NCBI RefSeq assembly: GCF_014779765.1
Contig: NZ_JACXZA010000001.1
Span: 744,001-808,000, forward strand
DNA from: Paenibacillus terricola
Lineage (GTDB): Bacteria > Bacillota > Bacilli > Paenibacillales > Paenibacillaceae
Direction of reading: 5' to 3'
DNA: 64,000 nucleotides
Below are positions 8,325-64,000 of this stretch, one piece after another. Each line of letters begins with the position of its first letter. The first letter of the stretch is position 1. The position numbers were made by a program, and so were the translations under genes. Under the pieces are notes generated by a model. That model made no database searches. It worked only from the letters and a program-made list of their open reading frames with translations, and was not told where the DNA came from.

Positions 8325-8371
8325 GAAATTATTTGCCTCTATATTTGCACCGCATGTGCATCATGCACTGT

Positions 8372-8400
8372 TCATAGTTGTCCAGCCTTTTTCATACATA
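8372..8400 (+). promoter_or_regulatory. Sigma-E-type promoter of spoIVFA-spoIVFB
   Basis: TCATAGT (8372-8378) resembles the sigma-E -35 KMATATT. After a 14-base spacer, CATACATA (8393-8400) resembles the -10 CATACAHT. The spoIVF operon is transcribed by mother-cell sigma-E in B. subtilis, which supports the reading. Confidence 0.6.
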
Positions 8401-8427
8401 TAGGACAAGTGAAGGAGGGCGTTAGCG

Positions 8428-45386: not shown

Positions 45387-45508
45387 CAGAACGAAATGTA
45401 CAGGTTAAACGATCTAACTATAGTCATATTTGTCAAAATGTGAATTTGTTAGCAAATGTCGAAATGCTGGTACAATGCCTCATACTCAACAAAGGGGTTG
45501 AACAAGCT

Positions 45509-48500
45509 TTGAATCAACATTTGTCGGATGATCGATTAACCGAGGGGCAAATTCGCGACTATTGGTCCAAGCTGCTGGAAGGGTGGCAGGCGGATCAGGT
45601 GATGATGCCCGATTCGAAGCTTTCCCCTGGGCAGCAATCCTCTCGTGTATGTCGATGGATAGCCGAAACTCATCAGATCGATCGATATTGCAAAAGTCGG
45701 GAAGATTTGAAAGCTGTTTTTTTGTTGACCGCATTATCGGAAACGTTTTCTACACTTGCCCTCGATGGCGCTGATCATGTTATCGCAATGCCAGCAATCC
45801 GTCGAATGGTTGCCTCTGAAGTTACAATTTCGTCACAAAACTTCGTTCAGTGGATGCCGATCCGATGTCGAAACAGACCGGGATCGGAAAACTTTCGGGA
45901 TGCTTTACAGCGTAACCTGGAGACAGTGAAGCACTGCAATAAGCATTCGCAGCATGAACAGCTGTATCAAGCGATAAGTGACTCGTTTCCTAATGGACTT
46001 TATCGGATTCGATTCGTCCATGAGCCGCTGCATGGCATGGTTAAAGTACCAGATGATGAGGCAGATTTGGTCTTTAGAATACGTGCAGAGGATGAAAGAA
46101 AGCTAAGCATGGAGCTGACAGGTGCCGCCAATTATAGTTCGACACTTCTTGCATCATTAGCCGATCTGTTTATGCGAGTTTTATCGACAGCGATTAGCGG
46201 CGAACTCCAAACCCCGCTCAAGCAGATAAACTTGCTGTCAGAATGCGAGAAAGCAAGGCAGGACGAATGGAACGCTACGACGCATCCTTTCGATTCCGAG
46301 CAGTCCATTATCGAGGCATTCGAGCGACTCGTATCCAAGCAGCCGACTTCACTTGCCATTGTGGATGAAGGTATCGAATGGACTTACAAAGAGCTTCACA
46401 TTCAAGCGCTTAACGCAGCGACGCAGCTGCGTCGTGCAGGTTATAACCCAGGCGATCGAATTGTCGTTATGATGGAGCGATCCGCTTCTTGGATTGCAGC
46501 GTTCCTAGGCATCCTGCATAACGGCTGCATCTATGTGCCGATCGATCCCGCTTATCCGCAAGAAAGAATCGATGCCATGCTGAAGGACAGCGAAGCAGTC
46601 GCCTGTATCGGAGATCGCGGCAGTCCCGCCGGCTGGACAGGCACTTATTACCACATCCAAGATCTAACAACCTCAAATACTTCCCCACAAATTGGCTTCA
46701 CGCAACAAGAGAGCAGAGCGGCGCCGGATGCGCTGGCTTATCTGTTGTTTACCTCAGGATCGACCGGACAACCGAAAGGTGTCATGATCGAACATCGCGG
46801 AGTTATTAATCTAACCAACTTGTTCATGCACAGAATGGGTATTGGCCCCGAAGACCGTATTATCCAGTTTGCGAGCGCTTCATTTGACGCGTCAATATGG
46901 GAAATCGCCATGGCGCTGCTTACAGGAGCAGCACTTGTAATCGCTAAGCCTAATCGAATCGCCGATTCGAGACTGTTCGAACAGCTGATACGGGAACAGC
47001 GGGTGACAACGGCAACTTTGCCTCCAGCTTATGCTGCGCAGCTCGCGCCCGAACGGATTCCCAGTCTTCGAACGCTTATTACAGCCGGATCAGAAGCCCA
47101 TCCTGAGCTGCCTGCACGATGGAACGGCAAGGCTCGCTATTATAACGCTTACGGTCCAACAGAGACGACTGTATGCGCAACAGTATGGGAGTGTCCGAAC
47201 GCTAAGGACTTCGCTATGAACGAATTATTAGAACCGATTCACTCGATCGTTCCTATCGGAAGACCGCTTCCGAATATGACCGTTTCGATTGTGAACGGCA
47301 GCATGCAGCGACTGCCGACAGGTATGGCAGGAGAGCTGTGCGTAGGCGGTATCGGATTGGCGCAAGGTTATTGGAATCGACCGGATTTGACATCGGAACG
47401 TTTCGTGTTAATGCCCGAGGACGGCATGCGTGTCTACCGTACCGGTGATTTAGCACGATGGACTGAAATGGGGGATATAGAGTTTTTAGGTCGGATTGAC
47501 CAGCAGGTCAAAATAAGAGGCTTCCGAATTGAGACGGAGGAAGTCGCGCTTGCTATACGCAGCTTGAAAGGCGTTGAGACTGCAGTCGTTCTGGCAAAGC
47601 CAGACGAGCACGGAGAGCATGTCTTGATCGCCTATTATACCGGCGAAGAAGCACCGGCTTCGAAGATGCTGGCTGCCGGTCTCGCAGCTAAGCTGCCGCG
47701 TCATATGTTGCCCGAACGGTGGGTTCGCCTTCCGATTATACCGCTTACGATCAATGGCAAGCCCGATCGAAAGGCGCTCCCAAGCGCTGCGGAAGCGGCT
47801 GCTTTGATGGAGCGAGAGCGTTTCGAAGCGCCACAGGGCGCGGTAGAGAACGAATTAGCTCGATTATGGGCGAAGGTGATAGCGGTCGACAACATTGGAC
47901 GACATGACCGCTTCTTTGAAATCGGCGGGCACTCGCTCAAGGCTGCCAAGTTAGGATCATTGCTGTACGAGCAATTCGGCGTAGATGTACCGCTTGAGCA
48001 GCTCATAGAGCATGCATCGCTTGCGGAGATGTCCGCGTTGATCGAGAAGGAACGGCAGCTGCGCGTGATCCGGCCGATTGCGCCAGCTCCGAAAGCTTCT
48101 GCCTATCGAGCTTCCCCTGCTCAGCGTCGCGTGTATGCCGTTGAGAAGTCGAGGCAGTCCGGTTCGCTGTATGTCCTCCCCTTCGCCTTATGGGTAAGCG
48201 GAGAGCGCGCCTCGGCGGATCGTTTCGAAGATGCGCTGCGCAAGCTTATCGATCGGCATGAACCGCTTCGTACGTCTTTCGGCTGGCAGGATGGGGAGCT
48301 CGTGCAATGGATAAGCGAGCATGTACCCTTTTATCTAAACAAGTTGTCACTTCCGATCGAGAAGCTGTCTGAAGTCGCGGATTACATGAATCATACGTTT
48401 ACTATTGAACAAGCACCGCTGCTGCATGCGGATTGGATTGATTGGTCCGATGGCAGGACGATGTTGTTCATACAGATTCATCACCTCATCGCAGACGGCA

Positions 48501-49438
48501 TGTCACTTGGTCGACTCGTTCATGACTTATTGGCGCTGTTGTCAGAACGTCCGCTTGCGCCGCTTCAACTGCAGTACAAGGATTACAGCGAATGGCTGCA
48601 GACGAGCGGTAATGAGCATGACAGCCGAATGGAAGAAGCGGAAGCGCATTGGCTTCGCCGTTTCTCGGACGGCCAGAGCAGCGGCGAGCTTCCGATCGAC
48701 TATTCACGTGGGACGGTACGTCAATTTGCAGGCGATACGATAGCGATTCAATGGGACCGTTCCATGGCAGAAGCCTTGAAACATCTTGCGGTACAATGCG
48801 GCGCGACTGTTCATCTGACCTTGCTTGCCGCTTATTATGTGCTGCTTACTCGTACAACGGGTTATCGCAACTGGACGGTCGGATCGCTGCATGCGGGACG
48901 AAGCCATCCTGATGCGGCAGATATGGTAGGGATGTTCGTGCATACGCTGGCACATCGACAGCAAATGCAAGAAGAAATGCGCTTCGATGAGTTTGTCAGC
49001 CGAGTGAAACAAGACGTAATGGAAGATTATGCGCATAGCGCTTATCCTTTCGAGACGCTTGTACGCAAGCTCGGTATTCGGGATTCTTCACGCAACCCGT
49101 TGTTCGATACGATGTTCGTTCTGCAAAATCTTGAAATTCCGCTCGCTTCGTCAGAAGGCTTAGCGATAATTCCTCATCGGTTGGAAGAGCGGATGACGCG
49201 ATTCGATCTCGTCTTCCAAGCATGGGACAACGCTGACGGGATGCTGCTGTGGATTACGTATGCTTCCGCGCTCTTCAGACGATCGACAGTAGAGAATTTG
49301 GCCTCTGATTACTTGCTGCTGCTTGAGCAGCTTGCCGCCAATCCAGCTATGCGAATTGGTGATGTAGAGCTGCCAGTTCATGAAGCGAAAGCGCAGCCAG
49401 TTGTTTCTACTGGTTCGGCGCTCGATTTTGAGTTTTAG
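45509..49438 (+). CDS. NRPS 1: half C - A (Phe-like code) - T - C
   Basis: A nonribosomal peptide synthetase of about 1309 residues. Residues 1-235 form only the C-terminal lobe of a condensation domain, without HHxxxDG. The A domain (about 250-770) has FTSGSTGQPKG near 412 and specificity positions, read against GrsA, of D-A-W-T-I-A-A-V-C, the phenylalanine-type code. The carrier domain has GGHSLKA near 805. A complete condensation domain (about 850-1290) has IHHLIADG near 990. There is no epimerase or thioesterase domain, so the final C domain must act with another protein. The start TTG 45509 is chosen for AAAGGGG at 45491-45497; the frame is open back to GTG 45440 and also holds ATG 45464. 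Confidence 0.9.
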   Translation: MNQHLSDDRLTEGQIRDYWSKLLEGWQADQVMMPDSKLSPGQQSSRVCRWIAETHQIDRYCKSREDLKAVFLLTALSETFSTLALDGADHVIAMPAIRRMVASEVTISSQNFVQWMPIRCRNRPGSENFRDALQRNLETVKHCNKHSQHEQLYQAISDSFPNGLYRIRFVHEPLHGMVKVPDDEADLVFRIRAEDERKLSMELTGAANYSSTLLASLADLFMRVLSTAISGELQTPLKQINLLSECEKARQDEWNATTHPFDSEQSIIEAFERLVSKQPTSLAIVDEGIEWTYKELHIQALNAATQLRRAGYNPGDRIVVMMERSASWIAAFLGILHNGCIYVPIDPAYPQERIDAMLKDSEAVACIGDRGSPAGWTGTYYHIQDLTTSNTSPQIGFTQQESRAAPDALAYLLFTSGSTGQPKGVMIEHRGVINLTNLFMHRMGIGPEDRIIQFASASFDASIWEIAMALLTGAALVIAKPNRIADSRLFEQLIREQRVTTATLPPAYAAQLAPERIPSLRTLITAGSEAHPELPARWNGKARYYNAYGPTETTVCATVWECPNAKDFAMNELLEPIHSIVPIGRPLPNMTVSIVNGSMQRLPTGMAGELCVGGIGLAQGYWNRPDLTSERFVLMPEDGMRVYRTGDLARWTEMGDIEFLGRIDQQVKIRGFRIETEEVALAIRSLKGVETAVVLAKPDEHGEHVLIAYYTGEEAPASKMLAAGLAAKLPRHMLPERWVRLPIIPLTINGKPDRKALPSAAEAAALMERERFEAPQGAVENELARLWAKVIAVDNIGRHDRFFEIGGHSLKAAKLGSLLYEQFGVDVPLEQLIEHASLAEMSALIEKERQLRVIRPIAPAPKASAYRASPAQRRVYAVEKSRQSGSLYVLPFALWVSGERASADRFEDALRKLIDRHEPLRTSFGWQDGELVQWISEHVPFYLNKLSLPIEKLSEVADYMNHTFTIEQAPLLHADWIDWSDGRTMLFIQIHHLIADGMSLGRLVHDLLALLSERPLAPLQLQYKDYSEWLQTSGNEHDSRMEEAEAHWLRRFSDGQSSGELPIDYSRGTVRQFAGDTIAIQWDRSMAEALKHLAVQCGATVHLTLLAAYYVLLTRTTGYRNWTVGSLHAGRSHPDAADMVGMFVHTLAHRQQMQEEMRFDEFVSRVKQDVMEDYAHSAYPFETLVRKLGIRDSSRNPLFDTMFVLQNLEIPLASSEGLAIIPHRLEERMTRFDLVFQAWDNADGMLLWITYASALFRRSTVENLASDYLLLLEQLAANPAMRIGDVELPVHEAKAQPVVSTGSALDFEF

Positions 49439-49508: not shown

Positions 49509-50600
49509 ATGGCAATCGCTTTGGATACGAGACGGGTTCTACCGATCGCAGAACCGGATATTGCGACATACGCGCACAATGCTTATTTCAACTCCATTTT
49601 GTATACCGATGAAATTGCAATGCGCTGGGTGTACAGCAATCATGTCCAACTCAAGGTGACGCTTTTTCCGAACGGGACCGAGGGTAATTCGCTATTTGTT
49701 GATTTTACGACGCCGTGTCCGTTCTCGGCCTACATCTCTTTCCTGCAGGGCTCTGAGCAGATGACCCGGGACTCCGTCAAGGAGACCGGCAGCTTTACAG
49801 ATTTTGTCCGTAACCGAGTTAGCCGAGGATTTTACGTCTTCGCCTCGCTTGATGAATATTACATTCCCGGCAGCTTGAGCTATAACAATCGCTATTTTGT
49901 CCATAGCATGATGATCCACGGCTATGACGATGAGCTGAAGAAGTTCCATGTGATGGGCTTCTTCGCTAACCAGAAGCTGGCCTCCCGCTTGATTGACTAC
50001 GAGGATGTAGAGCGGTCTTTTGCCAATATCGAAGGGTTCTTTTCCGAGGATTTTCATCGGATGGTGCATTTGATTCGAATCAATGAGGAACGCAGAAAAG
50101 GGATGTCGTTCAAGCTGTATTGGGTCATGGAACAGCTGCAGGATTATTTGAATGCAAAGCCGACCACTTACGCCAATTACGCCATGGACGAGCTGCCGCC
50201 ATTCCCTTCGATGTATGGAATCGATGTGTACGGCGAGCTCATTCGCAGGGTCGATGATCACTTGAACGGCAAAGATGTCGTCGATCATCGCCCGCTGCTA
50301 ATATTGTGGGAACACAAGCGGGTGATGAATGCCCGTCTGGACTACATGGAGCAGAACGAGATTTTCCAGTTCGACCGGCAGGTAAGAGAAGGATATGAGC
50401 GGATTGAACAGTCGGCGCTTGTGATGAAAAACCTGATTCTGAAGTTTTGGTTGTCTCAGGATATGCGGTTCCTTCAGCAATTGCGTGAGCGTCTCGTTCA
50501 GATGGAGCAGGACGAGCGGGTCATTATGACATCCATGCTCGAGCAGTATGCGGCGAATCCACAAGGAAGAGTGAAGGAGAATGGTGCCTATGCCTTTTGA
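49509..50600 (+). CDS. NRPS-associated protein with BtrH-like/papain-fold features
   Basis: I do not firmly recognise this 363-residue protein. The segment GFYVFASLDEYYIPGS, then HSMMIHGYDDELKKFHVMGFF (about residues 117-162), recalls the core of the BtrH N-terminal family, where an acyl or aminoacyl group is moved from a carrier protein. The cysteine expected near the N-terminus of that fold is not evident: the region reads AHNAYFNSILYTDEIAMRW, and the only Cys is in TTPCPF. The C-terminal half is helical and charged, with WEHKRVMNARLDYMEQNE. There is no signal peptide. The gene overlaps NRPS 2 and lies within the biosynthetic operon, so a role in transfer, release or tailoring of the peptide is likely. 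That is inference. Confidence 0.7.
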   Translation: MAIALDTRRVLPIAEPDIATYAHNAYFNSILYTDEIAMRWVYSNHVQLKVTLFPNGTEGNSLFVDFTTPCPFSAYISFLQGSEQMTRDSVKETGSFTDFVRNRVSRGFYVFASLDEYYIPGSLSYNNRYFVHSMMIHGYDDELKKFHVMGFFANQKLASRLIDYEDVERSFANIEGFFSEDFHRMVHLIRINEERRKGMSFKLYWVMEQLQDYLNAKPTTYANYAMDELPPFPSMYGIDVYGELIRRVDDHLNGKDVVDHRPLLILWEHKRVMNARLDYMEQNEIFQFDRQVREGYERIEQSALVMKNLILKFWLSQDMRFLQQLRERLVQMEQDERVIMTSMLEQYAANPQGRVKENGAYAF

Positions 50601-53600
50601 TGCATCGAACGGTCAAACGTTAAGCGGTGTCGTGCATGAGGCGGATCGGTTATTCTGGCGCAATCTGCTGGGGAACGACCGGGAGCTGACACGCGTTCCA
50701 GCCGATAGCAGAAAGCTGGACTCGCTGCTAGCCCAGTACAGCTTAAAATGTGATGAAGGGTTAACGGCGCTGCTTCATGGTAGAAGCGGCGGTTCGGATT
50801 ATGCGATGTACTTGCTTGTGACAGGCGCGCTTGCGCTTGTCACAGCCCGATATACGAATCAGCACGAAGTGCTGCTAGTGACGCCCGTGTTCGAACAAAC
50901 AAGGGAAGGGGGGATGGATAACGATCTTCTTGTGATGCCGGTTGCGATCGGGCAGCAGGATAACACAAGAATGTATTTGAACGGCATGCGGGATATGCTT
51001 CGAGGTGTGATGGAGCATCAACGCTATCCTTTTGATCGATTGGCTCGCGAGATCGGCTGGCTTGCTCAAGAGGAGGAACTGCTGACCATTCCGATTGCAG
51101 TCGGCTACAGCAAGCTGCAGTCTAAGGCTGAGCTTGACGCGAATCTCACCGATCTTCAGTTCTGGTTCAGTTATTCGGCGGACGGTCAATTGCTGCTGGA
51201 ACTGACCTATAATGCACAGCTGTATTCAGAGGCGTTCATTGAACAGATCAGCATGCATTGGCAATCAGCCGTTCGAGAACTGGCGGTGCAAACCGATACG
51301 ACGCTCGTTGAACTGGAGTGGCTGCCGGCATCCGATCGTTCACTTGTTATCGAGCAATGGAATGCAACGGCAGGACCTTTCCCTTCGGATGCAACGCTGC
51401 ACAGCTTGTTCGAGGCACAGGCGCTTCGAATGCCGGATGCGATTGCTGCGCTGTGTCGGGATGAACGGATCTCGTATCGCGAGTTAGATGAATGGTCGAA
51501 TCGGATTGCAAGAACGCTTCGGCAGACAGGCGCTGCTTCCGGCTCGCGTACAGCGGTGCTGTGCAGCCGTTCGTTTGCGATGGTGGCCGCCGTGCTGGGC
51601 ATCCTCAAAGCAGGCGGGGCCTATGTTCCGCTTGATGCTGCATGGCCGAAGCGAAGGTTGGAGACGGTGCTTCAGGAAGTAGGAGCGACGCATATCGTTA
51701 CGATGAAACAGACTTGGGAGCCTGTTGCGGATCTGGCGCGTCGCGTACGTTCGATCGACCGCATTCTTCTGCTTGATGAAGAGGACGTTCATGCAGAACC
51801 AGTCCTGCAGCAGCCGGATCTTATTGTCCGGATGTTTGACGATCTATCCGCTGCGGCCCATGATCGGGTATCGGCAGGCGGATTCATTAGCGCCTACACA
51901 GGTCTTGCTTATACAGAAGAAGAGGTCAATCAATATGTGAACCGGATTGTCGAGCTAGCAAGGCCGTTCGCAAGAGATGATAGGCGGGTGCTTGAAGTAG
52001 GCTGCGGCTCCGGCTTGATTATGTTCGAGCTGGCACCGTTGTTCGGTTTCTATGTCGGTCTTGATCCTTCGCCAGCAACACAACAGCGCAATGAGCAGAT
52101 TCGCCGCGAGCGCGGGTTCGCTAACGTTTCGCTGCTCACCGCTTTCGCGGACAGCATGGCTGACATGGAGGCGGCATCGTTTGATTTGATTATGCTGCCG
52201 AGTGTTTTTCAGTTCTTTGACGGGTACCGGTATGCGGAGAAGGTTATGCGTTTAGCATTGCGTCTGCTGAAGCCAAACGGAACGATTCTGATTGCGGATG
52301 TGCCCGACGAGGATTCCAAGGAGGAGTTCCGCATCTCGCTCGAAGAGTTCCGCCGTGATTATGGAATGGTCTATCAGTCCCGATTCAATATCGATCAACA
52401 TCTGTACGCGAGCGAAGCATTTTTCCAAGGTTATGCGGCTATGTATCCGAATGTATCGATCGAGATAGCACGCAGATCCGGTTTCCGCAACGAGCTGCGA
52501 TATCGATATGATGTCGTGATGACCTTGGATGGAGAATATATGGAGCCTGGTCACAATCTATACGTAACAGGCGGCCGAATTGCGCAAGAGAGCGCAGATG
52601 CTCTCGATCCTGTTGAGAGACCGGAGGATACCGCTTATGTGTTGTTCACATCTGGCTCGACAGGTACGCCCAAAGGCGTTGTCGTCACGCATCGCCCGGT
52701 CGTAAACGTTATCGACTGGGTGAATAGAACGTTTGGGGTGGACGAGCAGGACCGTTTGTTCTTCATTACCTCACTATGTTTCGATCTGTCGGTCTACGAC
52801 ATGTTCGGCATGTTCGCGGCAGGCGGCGCTATCGACATTGTGCCGGAGGAAGACGTCAAACGACCGGAAGGCTGGCTCAAACGTATGGCAGAAGCGGGCA
52901 TTACGATCTGGGATTCGGCTCCTGCTGCATTAGCGCAGTGCGTGCCGTACATGGAACGCCAATGGTCGGAGCTTGTGAAGCTCCGTCTGGCTCTTCTAAG
53001 CGGCGACTGGATTCCGCTGACGCTGCCTGGCCAATTGAATAATCGGTTTCCGGGCATTCGCGTTGCAGCGCTTGGCGGTGCGACGGAGGCGTGTATCTGG
53101 TCTAACTGTTACGAGGTTGACGAGGTGGATCCGGCTTGGGCAAGCATTCCGTACGGCAAACCGATTCGCAATGCGCGTTATTACATTCTGGACCGGAATT
53201 ATAAGCCTTGTCCGATCGGCGCAATAGGCGAGCTGTATATCGGCGGAGATTGCTTAGCATCTGGTTATCACTCGGAGAAGCTGACGCTGGATCGGTTTAT
53301 TGCTGACCCTTATTCCCCTATAGCTGGCGGTGTGATGTACAGGACAGGCGATCTCGCCAAGTGGATGCGGGATGGCAATATGGAGTTTCTCGGTCGGACG
53401 GATCATCAGGTCAAAATCCGCGGGTACCGCGTCGAGCTTGGCGAAATTCAAGCGAAGCTGCTGCGATATCCTGGCATCGGGCAGTGCATCGTGCTGGATC
53501 GTGCTGATGCCGCCGGCGTAAAGTCGCTGTGCGCCTATTATGTCGCAGAAGAAGAATATCAGGTGCGGTCGCTGCGTGACTATTTGGGCACCGAGCTGCC

Positions 53601-53946
53601 GCCTTATATGATTCCTTCTTATTTCATCAAGTTGGCATCGATCCCCGTCACCTCGAATGGCAAGGTTGACCGATCCGCATTGCCGGATCCCCACTCGATT
53701 AAGCGGCCGGATGAAGCTTATGAGCCGCCAGCGAATGACATGGAAGCGGAAATCGCAGAGCTGTGGAAGGAACTGCTCGAACTTGACAACGTGAGCGTGC
53801 TCGATGATTTCTTCGAAATCGGGGGCCATTCCTTGCTGGCCGTGAAGATGGAACTCGAGATGGAGCTGCGCGGCTATCTCATATCGCCTGAGCAGTTCGC
53901 ACAGTGTCGTACGATACGTGATCTGGCGCAGCATACGACTAAATAA
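50590..53946 (+). CDS. NRPS 2: half C - A with embedded methyltransferase (Cys-like code) - T
   Basis: This single-module synthetase of about 1118 residues starts with a C-lobe-only condensation half (residues 1-230) that lacks HHxxxDG. The adenylation domain begins near 255 and is interrupted between core motifs a2 (LKAGGAYVPLD, about 340) and a3 (VLFTSGSTGTPKG, about 684). The insert is a SAM methyltransferase (about 420-655) with motif I RRVLEVGCGSG. Specificity positions read D-L-Y-D-L-S-L-I-W, one change from the cysteine code DLYNLSLIW. The carrier GGHSLLA is near 1077. No C, E or TE domain follows. ATG 50590 has AAGGAG 10 bases upstream; ATG 50581 and GTG 50584 are too close to it. The start overlaps the preceding gene. 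Confidence 0.9.
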   Translation: MPFDASNGQTLSGVVHEADRLFWRNLLGNDRELTRVPADSRKLDSLLAQYSLKCDEGLTALLHGRSGGSDYAMYLLVTGALALVTARYTNQHEVLLVTPVFEQTREGGMDNDLLVMPVAIGQQDNTRMYLNGMRDMLRGVMEHQRYPFDRLAREIGWLAQEEELLTIPIAVGYSKLQSKAELDANLTDLQFWFSYSADGQLLLELTYNAQLYSEAFIEQISMHWQSAVRELAVQTDTTLVELEWLPASDRSLVIEQWNATAGPFPSDATLHSLFEAQALRMPDAIAALCRDERISYRELDEWSNRIARTLRQTGAASGSRTAVLCSRSFAMVAAVLGILKAGGAYVPLDAAWPKRRLETVLQEVGATHIVTMKQTWEPVADLARRVRSIDRILLLDEEDVHAEPVLQQPDLIVRMFDDLSAAAHDRVSAGGFISAYTGLAYTEEEVNQYVNRIVELARPFARDDRRVLEVGCGSGLIMFELAPLFGFYVGLDPSPATQQRNEQIRRERGFANVSLLTAFADSMADMEAASFDLIMLPSVFQFFDGYRYAEKVMRLALRLLKPNGTILIADVPDEDSKEEFRISLEEFRRDYGMVYQSRFNIDQHLYASEAFFQGYAAMYPNVSIEIARRSGFRNELRYRYDVVMTLDGEYMEPGHNLYVTGGRIAQESADALDPVERPEDTAYVLFTSGSTGTPKGVVVTHRPVVNVIDWVNRTFGVDEQDRLFFITSLCFDLSVYDMFGMFAAGGAIDIVPEEDVKRPEGWLKRMAEAGITIWDSAPAALAQCVPYMERQWSELVKLRLALLSGDWIPLTLPGQLNNRFPGIRVAALGGATEACIWSNCYEVDEVDPAWASIPYGKPIRNARYYILDRNYKPCPIGAIGELYIGGDCLASGYHSEKLTLDRFIADPYSPIAGGVMYRTGDLAKWMRDGNMEFLGRTDHQVKIRGYRVELGEIQAKLLRYPGIGQCIVLDRADAAGVKSLCAYYVAEEEYQVRSLRDYLGTELPPYMIPSYFIKLASIPVTSNGKVDRSALPDPHSIKRPDEAYEPPANDMEAEIAELWKELLELDNVSVLDDFFEIGGHSLLAVKMELEMELRGYLISPEQFAQCRTIRDLAQHTTK

Positions 53947-53966
53947 ACGGACGGAGAGTGCGCCGA

Positions 53967-54689
53967 TTGAAATTGTTGTGCTTACCGTATGCTGGAGGCT
54001 CCGCCAATTTATACGCTGCATGGCGTAGAAGGTTTCAGGCTGGCATCGCGTGCATGCCAATTGAGTTGACGGGGAGAGGCGTTCGCCGTCAGCTCGCTTT
54101 CTATGAAGGAATGAAGGATGCGGCGGAAGATGTGGTAGAGCAGATGATGAATCACGTCACTGACAGGGAGCCTTATGCGTTGTTCGGCCATTCGATGGGC
54201 GGCATGATTGCGTATGAGGCCGCGCACCTCATTCTTGAGCGACAACTTCCGCCGCCTGCGCTGCTTATTTTCTCCGGTCGGCCGGCCCCTCATGTTGAGC
54301 GAACGGATGCAAACATCCATCAACTGCCGGATGCCGATTTCATGAAGCGGATCGAAGAGATGGGCGGCACGCCTTCCGAGCTGTTCGCTGACCAACAGCT
54401 TCGCAATATATTTCTGCCCGTGCTTCGTGCAGACTTTCGACTCGTTGAGACGTATGTGTACAAGCCTCGGGCGCCGCTGCCCTATCGGTTTCTTGTCGTT
54501 GCAGGAACGACTGAGCGATGGACGGATGAACAATTGAATGGCTGGCACAGCCATACATCGGCTGGCTGCCGCATCACGAGGCTTGAAGGCGGCCATTTCT
54601 ATTGGAACGGCAATCCGGAACCGATTACCTCGCTTCTGTCAGAGGAGCTTCAATTCTTGCATGCGAATATCGGGTGGGAAAGGGGATAA
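53967..54689 (+). CDS. Type II (editing) thioesterase
   Basis: This alpha/beta hydrolase is of the kind that removes wrong or stalled groups from NRPS carrier domains. The 240-residue protein begins MKLLCLPYAGGSANLYAAW. The nucleophile motif FGHSMGGM has Ser76, and the C-terminal GGHFYWNG carries the likely catalytic His. Discrete size and position between two synthetases indicate type II rather than a release domain. TTG 53967 is preferred because GGAGAG at 53953-53958 is correctly spaced; GTG 53958 overlaps that site. It starts 20 bases after NRPS 2 ends. Confidence 0.9.
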   Translation: MKLLCLPYAGGSANLYAAWRRRFQAGIACMPIELTGRGVRRQLAFYEGMKDAAEDVVEQMMNHVTDREPYALFGHSMGGMIAYEAAHLILERQLPPPALLIFSGRPAPHVERTDANIHQLPDADFMKRIEEMGGTPSELFADQQLRNIFLPVLRADFRLVETYVYKPRAPLPYRFLVVAGTTERWTDEQLNGWHSHTSAGCRITRLEGGHFYWNGNPEPITSLLSEELQFLHANIGWERG

Positions 54690-54693
54690 GACG

Positions 54694-57600
54694 ATGAGAT
54701 TTGCCGACTTAGCCGCAATGCTCGAGCAGCGGGCTATGGACGAGGCAGGTGCAGGTATCGTTTTTATACGTAAAAAAGGCGATGAACGGCTCTCGTACCG
54801 CCAATTGTACAAAGAGAGCCTTCAGCTTGCCGGTCAACTGCGCTCGTATGGCATGCGGCCAGGCGATGAAGTCGTGCTTCGCATAGAAGATATGCGGAGC
54901 TTCGTGAGAGCTTTCTGGGCGGCTGTTCTTAGCAGCATGATTCCCGTTCCGCTTGCTTCCGGCGGTGGAGATGAGAGTCTAGCGAAGCTGTACAAGGTAT
55001 GGGGGGTGCTTCGGCGTCCTTGGCTCATTACAGACGAAGCGAAGATGCTCCTTCAGGTAATCGGTTCGGGGAATGGTTCAATTCCAGCTGAAGCTGTTGT
55101 GGACTGGAAACTATTCGTTGATCAACCGTCAGGTATCGGACACGTGGAGCTGTATTCGTCTGAGCATGTTGATGAAGGGGACTCATATGCCTTGCCTGAT
55201 TCGAATGCCGATTCCCTAGCGTTCATTCAGTTTTCTTCCGGTTCGACCGGCGATCCGAAAGGCGTCATGCTCACGAACCGCAACCTGATGTCCAATATGG
55301 ATGCGATCGTATCAGGCTCGCGCTCAACGCCAAGCGATCGCTCGCTCAGCTGGATGCCGCTGACGCATGATATGGGTTTGATCGGTTTTCACCTGTCCCC
55401 GATCTACGCTGGCATGAATCAATATTTGATGCAGCCGGCGCAATTTATGATGGATCCCGCGATGTGGCTTGCCAAAACATCTGAATATCGCATTACGTCC
55501 ATTGCGTCGCCTAATTTTGGTTATAAGCATGTCCTTGGCCGATTGAAGCCATCGGAGAGGCACGACTGGGATTTATCGGCTGTCCGGCTTATTTTCAATG
55601 GCGCGGAGCCGATCTCCGCTCAGTGGGCCGATCGTTTCGTCGATGCACTCGCTGATTACGGGTTGAATCCGGCTGCCATGTTTCCGGTGTATGGCATGGC
55701 TGAAGCGACGCTCGCTGTCACTTTTCCGCCTGTGGAGGAGCGGCTCGTATCGGTATCGGTTCAGCAGCAATCGCTTAAACTCGGCGGTTCAGCCGTTATC
55801 GCTGAAGAAACAGTGGATGGGACGATTACATTCGTCGACGTCGGCTTGCCCGTAGCGGACTGTGAGGTTCGCATTGCGGATGATGAAGATCGTATGCTGC
55901 CGGAGCTGGCGGTTGGCCACATTCATATTCGCGGAGCTGGTGTAACGACGGGGTACTACAATAACGCGGAAGCGAATCATGCCGCCTTCACCGCTGACGG
56001 CTGGCTGCGGACTGGCGATATCGGGTTTGTGAAAGCAGGCAGGCTGATCATAACGGGCCGATTCAAAGACATCATGTTCGTTCGCGGGCAAAATGTTTAT
56101 CCGCATGACGTAGAACGCCGAGCGGAGGAATTGGACGGCACCGGCAATGGCCGCGCGGCAGTATGCGGGGTAAAGCTGCCCGATTCCGGCGATGAGGAAA
56201 TCGTCTTATTCGTCGTCCATCGCGGCAAGCTGGAACGGTTCGCCGAGCAGGCGAGACTTTGGAGGAAGCAGTTAAATCGCGAGTTGGGCATGGACGTATA
56301 TGCCATCGTTCCGATTCGGACGATTCCGCGGACGACGAGCGGCAAGATCCAACGGTATCTGCTCGCTGAACGTTGGCAAGCTGGTGAGTGGACTTCCATT
56401 ATGCAGGAGTTGGCGGAGCTCGATTGCCAGGGGAGCCAGACTTCTGTTTCGAAGGAGAAAGATAACCTATCAAGTGAGACAATCGATGGGATAAATGCTG
56501 CGGAATACCCGGACCGCTTCGAAGAATTGACCGCTATTTGGCGAGAGGCATTGGGCAAAGAGCAGTTGACTATTGGGCTTGACAGCCACTTCTTGGAGTT
56601 GGGCGGCAACTCGCTTAAGGCGGCTTATGCCGCTCATGCGATAAGCGCTCGTTGGCGCACGGATATATCGATTCGCGAGCTGTATCAGTGTCCAACGCCA
56701 AGGCTGCTTTTAGCTCGACTAGCAGCAGAGGAAGCGGGAGCTGCAATCGGCGAAGCCGCTAGTTCAACTGATTTGCAACTCTTGGTTCGATCGGATCGGA
56801 ATGAGCCGTTCACAGCTGCATCTTATGCTGAAGCTCGAATCGCGCTTGTTGAGCAGGCGGAAGGGATCGGCAATGCTTATGTCATTGCGGTAGCGCTGCA
56901 AGCCGATGGTCCTTTGGCAGCGGATAAGGTTTATGCTGCATTATCTACGTTGATTGAAAGGCATGAAACGTTGCGAACGAGCTATCGCTGGCAGAATGGA
57001 GAGGTTAGAGCGGTGCCGCTGCAGGCGGGACAATGGAATGACAGCTGGTGGGGTGTCGTTCATGTCGAAGAAGGACGAGCAGATCAGGAACATAGCGACC
57101 TATTGCTGCGACCGTTCGACTTATCTTCTCCACCGCTGTTACGCGCGCTGCTCGTGACAGATGGTAATCTGCAGCATGAGCTTCTGTTAGCTATCCATCA
57201 TATTGCGGCTGACGGTGTTGCGATGAATGTGCTGCTGAACGAATTTACGGCATTGTTGGTTGGCCATACGCTAGAGGGACTGCAAGCGAGTTATCGGGAT
57301 TATGCAGAAATGGAGCGCAAGCGGCATGGTTCTGCTGTAATAGAGCTTTCACTTGGTTATTGGAAGCAGCAATTAGCAGGTCGGCTTCCGGTTATCGAAT
57401 GGCCGGCATCTGCAGCGAGAGCAGACAAGCGTACCTACCGCGGAGGAACGGTACAAAGTCAGCTTCCCGCTTCGGTGACCAAGCGTCTCCAGCAGCTAGC
57501 TGCGACGCAGCATGCTCCAATGTCGGCGGTGCTTCAATCGCTGCTCGGCATGCTCCTGCACCGATATACCGGACAGGAACAATTCGTAATCGGCATGCTG

Positions 57601-60600
57601 CTGGCGGGCCGCGATCATCCGAGCACTGCTGCAATCGTCGGTATGTTCAATAACTACGTACCGATTCGGATGCATGCGGCAGGCAACGTTTCACTTCAAG
57701 AGTTACTGGCTGAGACCCGTACGACTGTCCTGGATGCGCTCCGTCACGGCAGCGTTCCTTATGAATTAATTACTTCGCTTACAGAGGTTTCGCCAGAGCG
57801 AGGACGTAATCCATTGTTCGATACGATGCTCGTGCTGCATAACCAGACGGAAGGCATCCGTACAGCGTTCAAGGCAGCAGGCTGCCAATTCGAGCAGCGG
57901 TTTCTGGATACGAACTCTGCGAAGCTGGATCTGAAGCTTGATGTGTTCCCGGAAGCATCCGGGGAACTAAGCTGCGTCTGGGAATACAACGAAGCGCTGT
58001 TCACCCGTCAAGCGGCGGAACGATTAGCTCGCTTATGGTTAAAGCTGGTGCAGCAGGCTGTAGAACGTCCTGATGCTACTATTCGTGAGCTGGAACTACT
58101 GGACGAGCAGGAGCGGGAATTACTGCTGCATACATTTAACGCAACGGCAATCGAGCATCGGTTCGAGGAAGCAACCTTGCACGGAATGTTCCGTCGACAA
58201 GCAGAACGGGTACCCGAACGGATCGCGGCGGCATTCGGTGGTGGCGCCAAGGCACAGCTTACCTATCGCGAGCTTAATGAGCGGTCAGATCGACTCGCGA
58301 AGCAGCTGCGGAGACAAGGCGTACAACGTGGCTACGCAGTTGGCTTAATGGCTGAACGTTCACCTGCCATGATGGTTGGCGTACTCGGGATTCTGAAGGC
58401 GGGCGGCGCTTATGTGCCGCTGCCGCCTGATTTTCCGACGGAGCGTCTGCGTTTCATGACGGAGGAGAGCGGACTGGATGTCGTATGCGTGCAGGAAGCA
58501 TGGGGGGATACGGCAGCAGGTGCGCTGCCCGAGATGAAGCTTCTCTCGATTCATGAGGATGGTTATTGCGATTGCGAGCGCTCTGAACTAGAAACCTATG
58601 ATGAACTTCTAACCAATGATGAATCAGTTACCGCTGATGACTTGGCTTATATTCTGTTCACTTCCGGCTCTACCGGCCGGCCGAAGGGCGTCATGATCCG
58701 CCATGGTGCCGTCTTGAACCGCATTGGTTGGATGCAGCGCGCTTATCCGCTCGACGCGGGAGACGTCATCGTACAGAAGACGCCTTACAGCTTCGATGTC
58801 TCGGTCTGGGAGCTGTTCTGGTGGATGCTTGCTGGCGCATCAGCGACTTTCCTTGCTCCTGGCGATGAGAAAGACCCAGCTGCGCTGCTGCAGGCGATTG
58901 AGGCGAGCGGCGCGACGACGATCCATTTTGTGCCGTCGATGCTGGCGGCTTTCACGGATTCATTGCAGCCTCAGCCAGTAGAACAGCTTCAGCGCAAGCT
59001 GCGAACGCTGCGCCGCGTGTTCGCGAGCGGAGAAGCGCTCCAGCCGAGTCATGTGGATCGATTCTACGAACAGATGACCCGAGCAAGCAATACCGAGTCA
59101 AGGTTGATTAATTTGTACGGGCCGACCGAAGCGACGGTGGACGTTACCGTGTACGAATGCGAACCAGGGGCGAAGCTTCGCACCGTGCCGATCGGTCGCC
59201 CGATCGATAATACGACAGCATACGTCTTGAGTCCGAACGGAATGGAGCTTCAACCAATCGGGATCGCAGGAGAGTTATGTATTGGAGGCGTTCAAGTCGC
59301 AGCCGGCTATGTGAATCGGCCAGAGCTGACAGCGGAGCGGTTCGTGCCAGACCCATTCTCAGATGTAACGGACGCTCGGCTGTATCGGACAGGCGATCTC
59401 GTACGCTGGACGGAAGAGGGAACGCTCGATTATTTGGGCCGAATCGACAATCAGGTGAAGATTCGTGGTCACCGCATCGAGCTTGGCGAGATTGAGCGTG
59501 CACTGCTGTCGCATGAAGCGGTATCAGAAGCGGTCGTAACCACCGTTGATGGCGCGGCAGAAGGCGATCGTTCGATATGGGCCTATATCGTGGCGAGCCG
59601 CACTTGCACTTCCACGGAACTGCGCGAGCATTGCGCGGCGCTGCTGCCTGCGTATATGCTGCCAGTCGTCTGCATACAGCTGGAGCAAATGCCGCTGACG
59701 GCAAGCGGCAAAGCAGACCGGAAGGCACTGCCGAAACCGCCGGCTATTATATCCATGGAGACGGGCTCAACACATATTGAGCCGAGAACCGCGACGGAGC
59801 AAGCATTGGCAGCGCTCTGGCAGGAGCTGCTTGGACGTGAGCCGATTGGTGCGGACGATGACTTCTTCGCAATAGGCGGTCATTCGTTGAAGGGCGCATC
59901 TCTGCTGGCCTCCATCCATCGCACCTTCCAGTGTACGTTGTCATTGCGGGATATTTTCAACCATTCTACGGTCAGGCAGTTGGCCGCTCGCATTGATGAG
60001 CAGAATGCGGAACGCAGGGCGGACGGTTATGAAGACCTTCCGAAGCAGCCGCGTCGAGCAGAATATCCATTGTCTATGGGTCAAAATCGTCTGTTTGTGC
60101 TGCAGCAGCTCGATCCAGCTAGTACGGGCTATCATGTTTCGGCAACCCTGCGCATTACGGGGCCGCTGGATCTGGCACGCTTGCGTGCGGCGTTCCAATC
60201 CCTTATCGATCAGCATGAGATGCTGCGTGCATCGTTTCACTGGGTCGATGGACAACCTGTCATGCGGATCGCGCCAGCGACAGAAGCGGAATGGGAGTGG
60301 GTGGATGAACGCCACTCGAGTTCGATTGCCGCAGCAGACAGCTTCTCGCGGCCGTTTGACCTTCAACAGGCTCCGCTGCTTCGGCTGCAGCTAGCAGCAG
60401 TGGACAACCAAGAACATCGGCTGCTGCTTGAGATGCATCACCTTATCGCTGACGGGCTGTCGATCGCGGTATTAGCTCGACAGTTTATGACGTTGTACGA
60501 GGGCCAAGAATTGGAGCCATCCAGAGCCGCTTACGTCGACTATAGTGCGTGGCAGGAGCAGTGGATGTCGACTGAACAAAGCGGTAAGCAGGAGCAGTTC

Positions 60601-63600
60601 TGGCAGCAGACGCTGGCGGGGACGCCTCCGACGCTGTCGCTTCCAGCCGATTTCAGCCGTCCGGACCGGCTCGAATTCGCAGGCGACGATGTTCGAGTCG
60701 AGCTGAATGAGATGCTGGTGACGCGGCTGCAATCACTTACCACAAAGTCTGGCGCAACGATGTTCATGACGCTGCTGACGGCGTTCCAAGCGCTTCTGCA
60801 CCGGTATACGGGGGAAGAAGATATTTGGATTGGCACACCGGTCGGCGGCAGACCTCATTCTCAGCTTCATGAAATGATCGGGATGTTCGTTAACACGGTC
60901 GTCATTCGTTGTATGCCGCACGGCAGCCTAACCTTCCGCGAACTGCTTGCGCATACGCGTGAACAGTCGATTTCGGCGTTGGATAACGATCGGTATCCGT
61001 TCGAGCGGCTGGTCGATAAGCTGTCGGTTCGGCGGGATAACAGCCGCAATCCATTGTTTGATGTCATGTTTATTGTGCAAAATACGTCGATTCCAGCTGT
61101 CGCATGCGGAGACGTCGTATTCGAACCTGTCGACCAGCGTACATCAACATCCAAATTCGATTTGACTCTGGAGGTTATCGAGAAGGCAGGCAGCGATTCG
61201 CTGCAATGCCGTTTCGAATACCGGACGAAGCTGTTCCGCCGAGAGCGGATCGAGAGGATGGCCGGTCATTGGCTTCGCCTTCTGGAGTCGGCGGTGAGCA
61301 ATCCGGATGTACCGCTCAGCGAGTTGGCGCTGCTGGACGAGCAAGAGCGGGAACAGCTGCTGCACAGGTTCAACAGGGCGGCAATGGAACATCCGTACGA
61401 AGCATTGACCCTGCATGATATGTTCCGTCTACAGGCGAAACGTACGCCAGAGCGGATCGCAGCAGTATTCGGCGGCACGATATCACTGACTTACCAAGAG
61501 CTTGATCTACGATCAGATCGTCTGGCGAAGCAGCTGCAGTCACATGGTGTGCGTCTGGGGGGCGCAGTAGGCCTGATGACCGAGCGGTCGCCGGCACTGA
61601 TAGTTGGCGTTCTTGCGATTATGAAAGCGGGAGGCGCGTATGTGCCGCTGCCGCCGGATTTTCCAGCGGAGAGGCTGCGCTTCATGACAGAGGACAGCGG
61701 GCTGGAAGTCATATGCGTGCAGGAGGATTGGGTGAATGCTGCGGCGTCCGCGCTGCCCGAGAAGCGGATCGTTACGCTTAATACGGAAGGCGAGTGCACG
61801 TCTTCTCATTTGAGTTCAACCGATGATCTTCATCTCAGCGCAGCCAACGTCACGGCCGACGATCTCGCGTACATTTTGTTCACCTCTGGTTCAACGGGCA
61901 GACCAAAGGGCGTCATGATCCGCCACGGCGCCGTCATGAACCGAATCGGTTGGATGCAGCGGGCATATCCGCTTCAAGCGGAGGATGTCATCGTGCAGAA
62001 AACGCCTTACAGCTTCGACGTCTCCGTCTGGGAGCTGTTCTGGTGGATGCTTGCCGGCGCATCTGCATCTTTCCTTGCGCCTGGAGCGGAGAGGGATCCC
62101 GATGCGCTGCTGCAAGCCATCGAGACGAGCGGCGCAACGACGATTCATTTTGTGCCATCGATGCTGGCGGCCTTCACGGAATCAGCGCAGCTTAAGCCAG
62201 TAGAACAGCTCCAGCGCAAGCTTCGGACGCTCCGCTACGTATTCGCCAGCGGTGAAGCGCTGCAGCCAAGCCATGTGGAGAGGTTCTACGACTTGATGAT
62301 GGCAGCGGGAAATACAGAATCCCGGCTGATCAACTTGTACGGTCCGACAGAAGCAACCGTCGACGTAACGGTGTATGAATGCGAGCCAGGAGCTCGGCTG
62401 CACGCTGTACCGATTGGCCGGCCGATCGATAATACGACAGCGTACGTCTTGAGTCCGAACGGATTGGAGTTTCAACCAATCGGGATTGCAGGAGAGCTTT
62501 GCATTGGAGGCGTTCAAGTCGCAGCGGGTTATGTGAATCGGCCAGAGCTGACGGCGGAGCGGTTCGTGCCAGATCCATTCTCACATGATCTAAGCGGACG
62601 TTTGTATCGGTCGGGCGATTTGGTGCGCTGGACGGAAGATGGGATGCTGGACTACTTGGGCCGGATCGACAATCAGGTGAAGATTCGTGGTCACCGCATC
62701 GAGCTTGGTGAGATCGAACGTGCGCTGTTGACGCATGAAGCGGTGTCAGAAGCGATTGTGACCGTTGTTGACGGAAATTCGACATCGAAGGATGAGCGCT
62801 CCATATGCGCATACATCGTCGCTGGGCGCTCTTGCACAGCAAGCGAGCTGCGCGAGCACTGCGCTGCGCTGCTGCCAGTCTACATGCTGCCAACAGCCTA
62901 CGTGCAGCTGGAGCAAATGCCGCTTACAGCAAGCGGCAAGGCAGATCGCAAAGCGCTGCCTCAACCGCATGCCGGCACGTCCATGAAGACAGGCACAGCC
63001 TACGAGGAGCCGCGAACAGAGACCGAGAAAGCGTTGGCAGCTCTCTGGCAGGAGCTTCTGCAGCGAGATCGAGTCGGCGCACGCGATCAATTTTTCGAGC
63101 TGGGCGGCAATTCGCTGCTGCTCATTCGGCTTCATCGGGCGCTGCAGGATCGGTATCCGCAGTATGAAACCGTCAGCGTAGGCGACTTGTTTGCATATCC
63201 GACGATTGAGCAGCTGGCTAGATATTTAGACGAATCAAGTATACAGACGGCGGTAACGCCTGAGTTGATTGCGCTGCCTGACAGCTGGCGTGTCGAGCTG
63301 GAACCGAGCAGAACGATTCAGCTTTATCGCTCCACTCTGCCGGAGGAAACGGTCGAGCAGCTGACTATGCTTGGGCAATCGGCGGGGCTCGCTGCTCAAG
63401 AGGCAGCGCTTGGGATATTCTTGCTCGTATTCGCTCAGCAATTGGGACGACCAGCCTATGAACTGGCTGTTTGCGGGTTCGGCGAGGAGATGAGACTGCT
63501 GCGAGTCGATCTCCGCCAAACCAGAGGTTTCGCAGACATAATGGCCTTCGTCGGCAGCTGGCAGACAGAATATTCGCCTGTGCGTGCTGCAGCACCCAAA

Positions 63601-63843
63601 CGCAGGGCAATTCAGGATGGCGAAGCGTTGGTTGTATTCCGCGCGGCGCCTTCTGCGGAGCTGACGACCGATTGGACAAGCCGAGCGGCTGTCGTGTTCG
63701 GAGTTGAGCTTGCGGCGTCCAGTCTGCAGCTGCGCATCGATGCATCAGTGGTCAGCAAGCAGAAAGCGGCACAGTTGCTGCAAGCTTTCGCTGCTGCCTG
63801 CCGCAAGCTTGCACCGGCCGCTGCATCCCGCGCGGAGCAATAG
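54694..63843 (+). CDS. NRPS 3: acyl ligase - T - C - A(Ser) - T - C - A(Ser) - T - half C
   Basis: A 3049-residue synthetase. The N-terminal acyl-AMP ligase (about 1-590; FSSGSTGDPKG near 180, SWMPLTHDMGLIGFHLSP) loads a carrier (GGNSLKA near 636) with a fatty or other carboxylic acid. C1 has AIHHIAADG near 833. A1 has FTSGSTGRPKG near 1322 and code D-V-W-H-F-S-L-V-D, a serine code, followed by T with GGHSLKG near 1727. C2 has EMHHLIADG near 1913. A2 (near 2396) has the same serine code, followed by T with GGNSLLL near 2803. The last about 190 residues are a condensation C-lobe only. Expected output is acyl-Ser-Ser on the last carrier. There is no TE or E domain. ATG 54694 follows GGGAAAGGGG. 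Confidence 0.93.
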   Translation: MRFADLAAMLEQRAMDEAGAGIVFIRKKGDERLSYRQLYKESLQLAGQLRSYGMRPGDEVVLRIEDMRSFVRAFWAAVLSSMIPVPLASGGGDESLAKLYKVWGVLRRPWLITDEAKMLLQVIGSGNGSIPAEAVVDWKLFVDQPSGIGHVELYSSEHVDEGDSYALPDSNADSLAFIQFSSGSTGDPKGVMLTNRNLMSNMDAIVSGSRSTPSDRSLSWMPLTHDMGLIGFHLSPIYAGMNQYLMQPAQFMMDPAMWLAKTSEYRITSIASPNFGYKHVLGRLKPSERHDWDLSAVRLIFNGAEPISAQWADRFVDALADYGLNPAAMFPVYGMAEATLAVTFPPVEERLVSVSVQQQSLKLGGSAVIAEETVDGTITFVDVGLPVADCEVRIADDEDRMLPELAVGHIHIRGAGVTTGYYNNAEANHAAFTADGWLRTGDIGFVKAGRLIITGRFKDIMFVRGQNVYPHDVERRAEELDGTGNGRAAVCGVKLPDSGDEEIVLFVVHRGKLERFAEQARLWRKQLNRELGMDVYAIVPIRTIPRTTSGKIQRYLLAERWQAGEWTSIMQELAELDCQGSQTSVSKEKDNLSSETIDGINAAEYPDRFEELTAIWREALGKEQLTIGLDSHFLELGGNSLKAAYAAHAISARWRTDISIRELYQCPTPRLLLARLAAEEAGAAIGEAASSTDLQLLVRSDRNEPFTAASYAEARIALVEQAEGIGNAYVIAVALQADGPLAADKVYAALSTLIERHETLRTSYRWQNGEVRAVPLQAGQWNDSWWGVVHVEEGRADQEHSDLLLRPFDLSSPPLLRALLVTDGNLQHELLLAIHHIAADGVAMNVLLNEFTALLVGHTLEGLQASYRDYAEMERKRHGSAVIELSLGYWKQQLAGRLPVIEWPASAARADKRTYRGGTVQSQLPASVTKRLQQLAATQHAPMSAVLQSLLGMLLHRYTGQEQFVIGMLLAGRDHPSTAAIVGMFNNYVPIRMHAAGNVSLQELLAETRTTVLDALRHGSVPYELITSLTEVSPERGRNPLFDTMLVLHNQTEGIRTAFKAAGCQFEQRFLDTNSAKLDLKLDVFPEASGELSCVWEYNEALFTRQAAERLARLWLKLVQQAVERPDATIRELELLDEQERELLLHTFNATAIEHRFEEATLHGMFRRQAERVPERIAAAFGGGAKAQLTYRELNERSDRLAKQLRRQGVQRGYAVGLMAERSPAMMVGVLGILKAGGAYVPLPPDFPTERLRFMTEESGLDVVCVQEAWGDTAAGALPEMKLLSIHEDGYCDCERSELETYDELLTNDESVTADDLAYILFTSGSTGRPKGVMIRHGAVLNRIGWMQRAYPLDAGDVIVQKTPYSFDVSVWELFWWMLAGASATFLAPGDEKDPAALLQAIEASGATTIHFVPSMLAAFTDSLQPQPVEQLQRKLRTLRRVFASGEALQPSHVDRFYEQMTRASNTESRLINLYGPTEATVDVTVYECEPGAKLRTVPIGRPIDNTTAYVLSPNGMELQPIGIAGELCIGGVQVAAGYVNRPELTAERFVPDPFSDVTDARLYRTGDLVRWTEEGTLDYLGRIDNQVKIRGHRIELGEIERALLSHEAVSEAVVTTVDGAAEGDRSIWAYIVASRTCTSTELREHCAALLPAYMLPVVCIQLEQMPLTASGKADRKALPKPPAIISMETGSTHIEPRTATEQALAALWQELLGREPIGADDDFFAIGGHSLKGASLLASIHRTFQCTLSLRDIFNHSTVRQLAARIDEQNAERRADGYEDLPKQPRRAEYPLSMGQNRLFVLQQLDPASTGYHVSATLRITGPLDLARLRAAFQSLIDQHEMLRASFHWVDGQPVMRIAPATEAEWEWVDERHSSSIAAADSFSRPFDLQQAPLLRLQLAAVDNQEHRLLLEMHHLIADGLSIAVLARQFMTLYEGQELEPSRAAYVDYSAWQEQWMSTEQSGKQEQFWQQTLAGTPPTLSLPADFSRPDRLEFAGDDVRVELNEMLVTRLQSLTTKSGATMFMTLLTAFQALLHRYTGEEDIWIGTPVGGRPHSQLHEMIGMFVNTVVIRCMPHGSLTFRELLAHTREQSISALDNDRYPFERLVDKLSVRRDNSRNPLFDVMFIVQNTSIPAVACGDVVFEPVDQRTSTSKFDLTLEVIEKAGSDSLQCRFEYRTKLFRRERIERMAGHWLRLLESAVSNPDVPLSELALLDEQEREQLLHRFNRAAMEHPYEALTLHDMFRLQAKRTPERIAAVFGGTISLTYQELDLRSDRLAKQLQSHGVRLGGAVGLMTERSPALIVGVLAIMKAGGAYVPLPPDFPAERLRFMTEDSGLEVICVQEDWVNAAASALPEKRIVTLNTEGECTSSHLSSTDDLHLSAANVTADDLAYILFTSGSTGRPKGVMIRHGAVMNRIGWMQRAYPLQAEDVIVQKTPYSFDVSVWELFWWMLAGASASFLAPGAERDPDALLQAIETSGATTIHFVPSMLAAFTESAQLKPVEQLQRKLRTLRYVFASGEALQPSHVERFYDLMMAAGNTESRLINLYGPTEATVDVTVYECEPGARLHAVPIGRPIDNTTAYVLSPNGLEFQPIGIAGELCIGGVQVAAGYVNRPELTAERFVPDPFSHDLSGRLYRSGDLVRWTEDGMLDYLGRIDNQVKIRGHRIELGEIERALLTHEAVSEAIVTVVDGNSTSKDERSICAYIVAGRSCTASELREHCAALLPVYMLPTAYVQLEQMPLTASGKADRKALPQPHAGTSMKTGTAYEEPRTETEKALAALWQELLQRDRVGARDQFFELGGNSLLLIRLHRALQDRYPQYETVSVGDLFAYPTIEQLARYLDESSIQTAVTPELIALPDSWRVELEPSRTIQLYRSTLPEETVEQLTMLGQSAGLAAQEAALGIFLLVFAQQLGRPAYELAVCGFGEEMRLLRVDLRQTRGFADIMAFVGSWQTEYSPVRAAAPKRRAIQDGEALVVFRAAPSAELTTDWTSRAAVVFGVELAASSLQLRIDASVVSKQKAAQLLQAFAAACRKLAPAAASRAEQ

Positions 63844-63901: not shown

Positions 63902-64000
63902 GTGAGATTCAATGTGAAAGTGCTAGCTGGCTCCGTGCTGCATGCGGTGTTGTATTTGTTTGTGTTCTGGGTTATTTCGGAGCTTCATGGCAAGCTGGTC
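63902..64000 (+). CDS. Start of a membrane protein gene (partial, runs off the window)
   Basis: The frame opens at GTG 63902 after GGAAAGGGA and stays open for 33 codons to the window edge. The product begins MRFNVKVLAGSVLHAVLYLF with a hydrophobic segment through about residue 25 (VFWVISELHGKLV). The gene is probably part of the NRPS operon, since it starts 58 bases after NRPS 3 with no terminator. The function cannot be told from this fragment. Confidence 0.6.
   Translation, partial: MRFNVKVLAGSVLHAVLYLFVFWVISELHGKLV

Follow-up and report, generated by a model that had tools for sequence, protein, structure and literature searches.

The closest described systems to the locus considered here are TioN of thiocoraline and MarQ of maremycin. 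Two reviews, in the sections drawn on here, list both as adenylation (A) domains that are interrupted between motifs a2 and a3 by a methyltransferase (M) domain and S-methylate cysteine, and place most other inserts between a8 and a9 (PMC11355689, PMC8949500). For TioN this is what a sequence-only reading of our locus had stated, and the listing is that of PMC11355689. TioN and MarQ are the only a2-a3 cysteine S-methylases named in these sections, one table of which is a self-described partial list. The a2-a3 position itself carries no information on methylation of sulfur versus nitrogen, as TtcC and TtmB of thalassospiramide are entered in the cited section as a2-a3 N-methylating enzymes (PMC11355689).

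The window analyzed here comprises 64,000 nucleotides of the Paenibacillus terricola genome (contig NZ_JACXZA010000001.1, positions 744,001 to 808,000), and coordinates below are those of the window. ORF3 (50581..53946, plus strand, 1121 amino acids) encodes, in order, a partial condensation (C) domain, the N part of an A domain, an M domain, the C part of the A domain, and a T (PCP) domain, with all of these features on the plus strand. The protein starts with the C-terminal half of a C domain (50638..51333; Pfam match partial, residues 20-251, profile positions 192-450 of 456), and a full C domain closes the upstream protein, ORF1. A motif scan places a2 (LKAGGAYVPLD) at residue 342 (51604..51636), the SAM-binding motif VLEVGCGSG at residue 470 (51988..52014) and a3 (TSGSTGTPKG) at residue 690 (52648..52677) of this one reading frame, which bears out the earlier statement that a SAM methyltransferase sits between a2 and a3. 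The span then given for the feature, 51840..52570, is close to that of the M domain, which occupies residues 417-647 (51829..52521) in an alignment to the M domain of TioS (PDB 5wmm), its best match among solved proteins (5.5e-16). Motifs a4 to a10 were likewise located by the scan, as was the GGHSL serine of the T domain (53749..53934, Pfam and motif), and an a1 pattern tried on ORF3 gave no match. Pfam finds two AMP-binding stretches (9.6e-78) that flank Methyltransf_31 (1.3e-14) and four further methyltransferase models, and a PP-binding match; the spacing from a2 to a3 is 347 residues, compared with 73-108 in uninterrupted relatives where measured. The M domain thus lies between a2 and a3 in a single frame with A motifs intact on either side, and ORF3 is a real a2-a3 interrupted A domain, not a chance arrangement, which is probably active. 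Both the motif order and a separate clade in the M-domain tree distinguish its insert from the a8-a9 kind.

ORF3 is like TioN and MarQ in its a2-a3 site, its SAM-dependent M domain, and its Cys-type A domain; we call it TioN-like by architecture and code, not by direct sequence comparison. It is unlike them in its in-line T domain and partial C domain, its Bacillota host, and a search of the one P. terricola genome for an MbtH-like gene (PF03621), which found none. TioN has an MbtH-like protein as its partner, but the need for such a partner varies among A domains, so that the missing gene is not decisive. In the thiocoraline cluster the MbtH-like protein is TioT, according to the section cited (PMC4052310).

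The gene belongs to an NRPS/PKS cluster that spans positions 45440 to 76208 in window numbering, beyond the window end; its first six genes are on the plus strand. ORF1 (45440..49438) consists of an N-terminal region without a Pfam match, an A domain, a T domain, and a C domain (HHLIADG). The first 260 residues (45440-46220) resemble a partial C domain by eye, and the A-domain code, DAWTIAAVCK, presumably specifies Phe. ORF2 (49509..50600) has only a weak C39-like match and no Pfam family over the cut-off, with weak BtrH_N matches in five of seven relatives scanned, and is possibly a release or acyl-transfer enzyme. An ORF2-like gene adjoins the A-M-A gene in L034-L037, L039, L040, L049, and L054, and L036, L037, and L039 have two copies. 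ORF4 (53958..54689) is a stand-alone thioesterase by Pfam, overlapped by the putative start of ORF5 (54538..63843; AMP-ligase, ACP, C, A, T, C, A, T by Pfam). We read the AMP-ligase of ORF5 as fatty-acyl-AMP ligase (FAAL) type, and both of its A domains have the Ser code DVWHFSLVDK. The start of the CPBP/Rce1-like ORF6 (63902..64000) reaches the window edge, and ORF7 (65580-76208 in window numbering; L002:3580-14208) contains a KS, three C and three T domains, an FkbH domain (TIGR01686, 4.5e-88), and one A domain with a Ser code. No acyltransferase family is listed for ORF7 in the profile scan, and its KS and FkbH line may build in a glyceryl-type unit. The upstream flank holds housekeeping genes (recJ, apt, relA/spoT, and dtd), and the downstream flank a histidyl-tRNA-synthetase-like gene.

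Judged by domain order, the chain would pass from ORF5 to ORF7, ORF1, and ORF3, giving a predicted product of fatty acyl, Ser, Ser, a small ORF7 unit, Ser, Phe, and then the ORF3 residue. Homologues of ORF1, ORF3, ORF4, and ORF5 are present in all eight nearest named loci (L034-L040 and L054, from Cohnella and Paenibacillus), and a homologue of ORF2 in seven of them. Identity among the ORF3 homologues is 53-56% to the window, and in each of the eight the ORF1 homologue has the code DAWT[IV]AAVCK and the C domain motif HHIIADG.

Alignment to an A domain from the same cluster yielded the code DLYDLSLIWK from the a4-a5 region of ORF3 (52780..53100), in agreement with the D-L-Y-D-L-S-L-I-W read before. 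Asp278 is not part of the classical Cys code. Compared with module 2 of BmdB (bacillamide; PDB 7ly7), the sole change in the window pocket is at position 278, D for N, and the cited section of PMC8795117 reports that the structure of this module was determined with a cysteine adenylate analogue. BmdB module 2 combines Asn278 with a Cy domain, while ORF3 combines Asp278 with a C domain. Cysteine is the simplest reading of the ORF3 substrate.

We therefore put forward, with confidence a little above even, that ORF3 makes S-methyl-cysteine. Its A domain would activate L-cysteine and load its own T domain, the M domain between a2 and a3 would methylate the thiol using SAM, and the terminal C domain of ORF1 would join the S-methyl-cysteinyl-T to the upstream chain carrying the Phe from ORF1. 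The cysteine substrate, the sulfur acceptor, methylation on the T domain, and the module order are all parts that we infer; inserted M domains methylate the T-bound residue according to a review section. S-methyl-cysteine had already been suggested in the sequence-only reading. The Cys-type code and the separate M clade speak for that suggestion, and Asp278, the non-Cys locus L052 (below), and the silence of the a2-a3 site on S versus N limit it.

We considered Asp278 as a marker of S-methylation and rejected it, as 19 uninterrupted A-domain rows also carry this residue. Among uninterrupted domains, L151-L161, L163, L168, and L169 have the code DLYD[FL]SL[VI]W, and such upstream C domains as were seen have HHAxLDGWS. 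A free methyltransferase sits beside the uninterrupted A domain of S. decoyicus (L168) and does not match the M domain convincingly. In the uninterrupted Cys-type A-T proteins L165, L167, and L174, an ORF2-like domain is seen by eye behind the T domain. In the A-domain tree most interrupted domains fall together (SH-aLRT 89), in a group whose rows comprise 27 interrupted domains, six without the insert, and one undecided. The insert needs four changes on this tree, which we tentatively read as one gain and some losses.

To place the insert itself, phylogenetic trees of M domains were generated. A quick tree of 76 rows held the window, all 15 varied-code rows plus the two orphan M ORFs of the 30 loci from the family, 50 of the 78 named loci, seven further actinomycete rows, and L115. 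The 50 named loci were the 22 of the Cys set, three other a2-a3 loci, 24 a8-a9 loci, and L108 (as L112); 11 of L005-L016 are repeats of named loci, and L011, which is not a repeat, was omitted. A tree of 60 rows, made by a more careful method from the same set less 18 rows removed for speed and with L134 and L136 added, separates three groups (supports are bootstrap/SH-aLRT). The window's clade has 31 rows (100/98), a varied-code a2-a3 clade has 17 (16 plus one orphan; 99/96), and the a8-a9 inserts form the third with 12 (100/100). The quick tree agrees, with 99 for the window's clade and 83 for the varied-code clade. Within its clade the window groups with its eight cluster relatives at 100/100. 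Seven actinomycete rows, namely S. katrae L112, S. albidoflavus L134, L122, and four from the order of S. katrae, also lie inside the window's clade (100/99), and these members have the stand-alone A-M-A form of TioN and MarQ. A T-like motif after M is seen in none of the eight loci from the first of two actinomycete searches (below), a PP-binding match is absent in L108, and all eight loci have Asp278 and the V/I-W pair.

Codes in the varied-code clade read as Thr, Leu, Asn/Asp, and others. In the window's clade, by contrast, 30 of 31 rows have Cys-type codes as far as these are readable. Among the named loci L034-L055, 20 of 22 yielded a full code. Asp278 is present in 19 of these codes and Asn278 in the remaining one, L050; the reading of L045 stops after DLYDFS. 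The exception is L052, from an Acidobacteriota metagenome-assembled genome (MAG), whose Cys-type label in the trees predates the reading of its code and which lies within the clade regardless. The sequence FDLTLTS in its A domain does not correspond to a Cys-type code; this code begins D-L-T, and the end of the contig follows shortly. A tie to one residue type is expected of a thiol methylase and not of a backbone N-methylase, so the window's clade favors S-methylation, but strict Cys exclusivity had to be rejected on account of L052. This weakens the exclusivity argument, and we lowered our confidence in S-methyl-cysteine from modestly above even to the slight preference given above.

Backbone N-methylation of the loaded residue by the M domain is the alternative that fares best, and we consider it unlikely. 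TtcC and TtmB are the a2-a3 precedent for it, the M domain is homologous to that of the N-methylating TioS at 5.5e-16, and L052 breaks any strict link between the clade and Cys codes. Against it stands first the tree: the window M domain lies outside the a8-a9 clade, the type of TioS (an a8-a9 enzyme in the cited section of PMC11355689), and outside the clade in which Tistrella pTM1 L136 forms a long branch. The circular record of L136 opens with the M-bearing protein, which starts at base 1, and a 15.6-kb NRPS gene stops 44 bases short of the record end; on these grounds L136 is probably TtmB. The phylogenetic check that the sequence-only reading had called for, against other kinds of insert, thus puts the window's insert apart from both the varied-code a2-a3 clade with its probable TtmB and the a8-a9 clade, an outcome in favor of that reading.

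A second line of evidence against N-methylation is the motif-IV region (LPSVFQFF, 52195..52218, counted by hand from the SAM motif), where the window reads MLPSVFQFF in alignment with ILNSVVQYF of TioS. Most NRPS M domains compared here have Asn at this place (ILNSVxQYF). In the window's group all 33 rows have Ala or Pro instead, among them L052 with its Ala, so the window M domain lacks the Asn, but it is kept in 18 of 19 varied-code a2-a3 rows, among them L136, and in 50 of the 51 remaining NRPS M rows. The latter figure includes a rest of 29 rows counted as 27, as L108 repeats L112 and L109 is a2-a3, and the insertion sites of those 27 were assigned by motif only, some being unclassified. 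L109, outside both counts, has Asn, and the two orphan M ORFs have Ser. The residue that follows strand 4 in class I methyltransferases often contacts the acceptor, so that loss of the Asn fits a non-amine acceptor. Since the change arose once, on a single branch, it counts as a hint, short of independent proof.

The A domain might instead take L-2,3-diaminopropionate, with Asp278 turned toward the amine of its side chain, and the product of the M domain would then be beta-N-methyl-diaminopropionate. We regard this as improbable. In its favor are Asp in place of Asn at 278 and the SbnA-type diaminopropionate enzyme, which is present in the P. terricola genome and over the cut-off in all nine tested genomes with a window-type A-M-A gene (in one of these, G067, only the A-M-A gene and not the rest of the cluster was examined). 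Overall, SbnA is found in 10 of 13 tested genomes, compared with 48 of 98 genomes of the family. However, the nearest SbnA match is not part of the cluster, being separated from ORF1 by about 92 kb of the same contig; SbnA occurs in six of six genomes of the window's genus; G053, G038, and G007, which have related A-M-A genes, show none over the cut-off; and apart from position 278 the pocket matches a Cys A domain.

An inactive M domain with a structural role, or one that works on another substrate, is also quite improbable. SAM-binding motif I is intact, and in an alignment of 13 rows (the window M domain and 12 relatives at 38-53% identity) E97, G99, C100, G101, S102, G103, and L104 are invariant along with many other positions, arguing for functional selection; moreover, some near A-domain relatives lack the insert, so the A fold is independent of it.

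The condensation domains bear on the fate of the cysteine. The upstream C domain in ORF1 has HHLIADG and is not a Cy domain (DxxxxD), and HHxxxD is found in the upstream C domain of all four Cys-type ORFs in which it could be read in the same protein (L043, L050, L053, and L055), so that thiazoline formation is not expected. Methylation of the cysteine alpha carbon has a precedent in thiazoline peptides, whose alpha-methyl-cysteine units are then heterocyclized, but with the C domains read being HHxxxD and not Cy we think it very improbable here. In Moorena L043, neighboring Asn278 modules have Cy domains and the A-M-A module has a C domain, which makes this locus a candidate for a peptide with both thiazoline and S-methyl-cysteine.

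Relatives of the M domain at E <= 1e-15 occur in 41 of 394 genomes of the family. The sequence-only reading had held a2-a3 inserts to be rarer than a8-a9 inserts; the cited sections of both reviews agree (PMC11355689, PMC8949500), whereas 28 of 30 loci fetched from family genomes have the N part of A before M and the C part after it, the a2-a3 arrangement, in a sample drawn from among the best matches to the window M domain and thus biased. The other two, L028 and L032, are orphan M ORFs of 446-456 amino acids, homologous to NRPS M domains, in which an A domain was not detected. L017-L027, L029-L031, and L033 form a second a2-a3 set in the family, whose codes vary (Thr- or Leu-like, and others) and which is probably backbone N-methylating. 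In the collection of named genomes, 137 stretches encode an M relative, and 78 of these loci were taken. Two actinomycete searches matched 8 genomes out of 391 and 2 out of 394, both of the two being among the eight, and TioN was not identified among these matches. The window's M clade extends over at least six phyla (Bacillota, Actinomycetota, Cyanobacteriota, Pseudomonadota, Acidobacteriota, and Cloacimonadota), several of them represented by MAGs only.

As an enzyme, ORF3 probably belongs to the known but sparsely described kind of TioN and MarQ, and the clade-wide pattern is more interesting than the single case. We tentatively propose that the Cys-type a2-a3 A-M-A proteins are one old machine, dedicated to cysteine S-methylation and shared by at least six phyla, that the residue after strand 4 of the M domain, Asn versus Ala or Pro, tells an amine from a side-chain acceptor, and that the Cohnella and Paenibacillus lipopeptides end in Phe-S-methyl-Cys. 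We would expect this broad proposal to fail somewhat sooner than to hold, and the non-Cys code of L052 moved it slightly further in that direction. If true, the methylated atom could be read from sequence, and the lipopeptide family of Cohnella and Paenibacillus would be both conserved and undescribed. A cross-phylum clade with in-line T domains would supply more parts to study, and the residue split from N-methylating domains would give a testable rule for methyl placement. In our literature searches the code strings appeared in no paper and nothing on point for the clade came up; an earlier listing is possible.

Two loci merit separate mention. In S. katrae L108, a tryptophan-dioxygenase-like gene (7341-8816) lies close to the stand-alone A-M-A gene. 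L108 was considered as a MarQ orthologue and the idea dropped, because this neighbor matched only tryptophan 2,3-dioxygenase entries of the PDB at E <= 0.001 and not the MarE entries 8VYY and 9CA3 (for MarE, see the cited part of PMC11904535). In L055, from a Thiomargarita MAG, a single protein carries the Cys-type a2-a3 insert together with a second M domain in a Gly-like A domain (DILQLGVIW).
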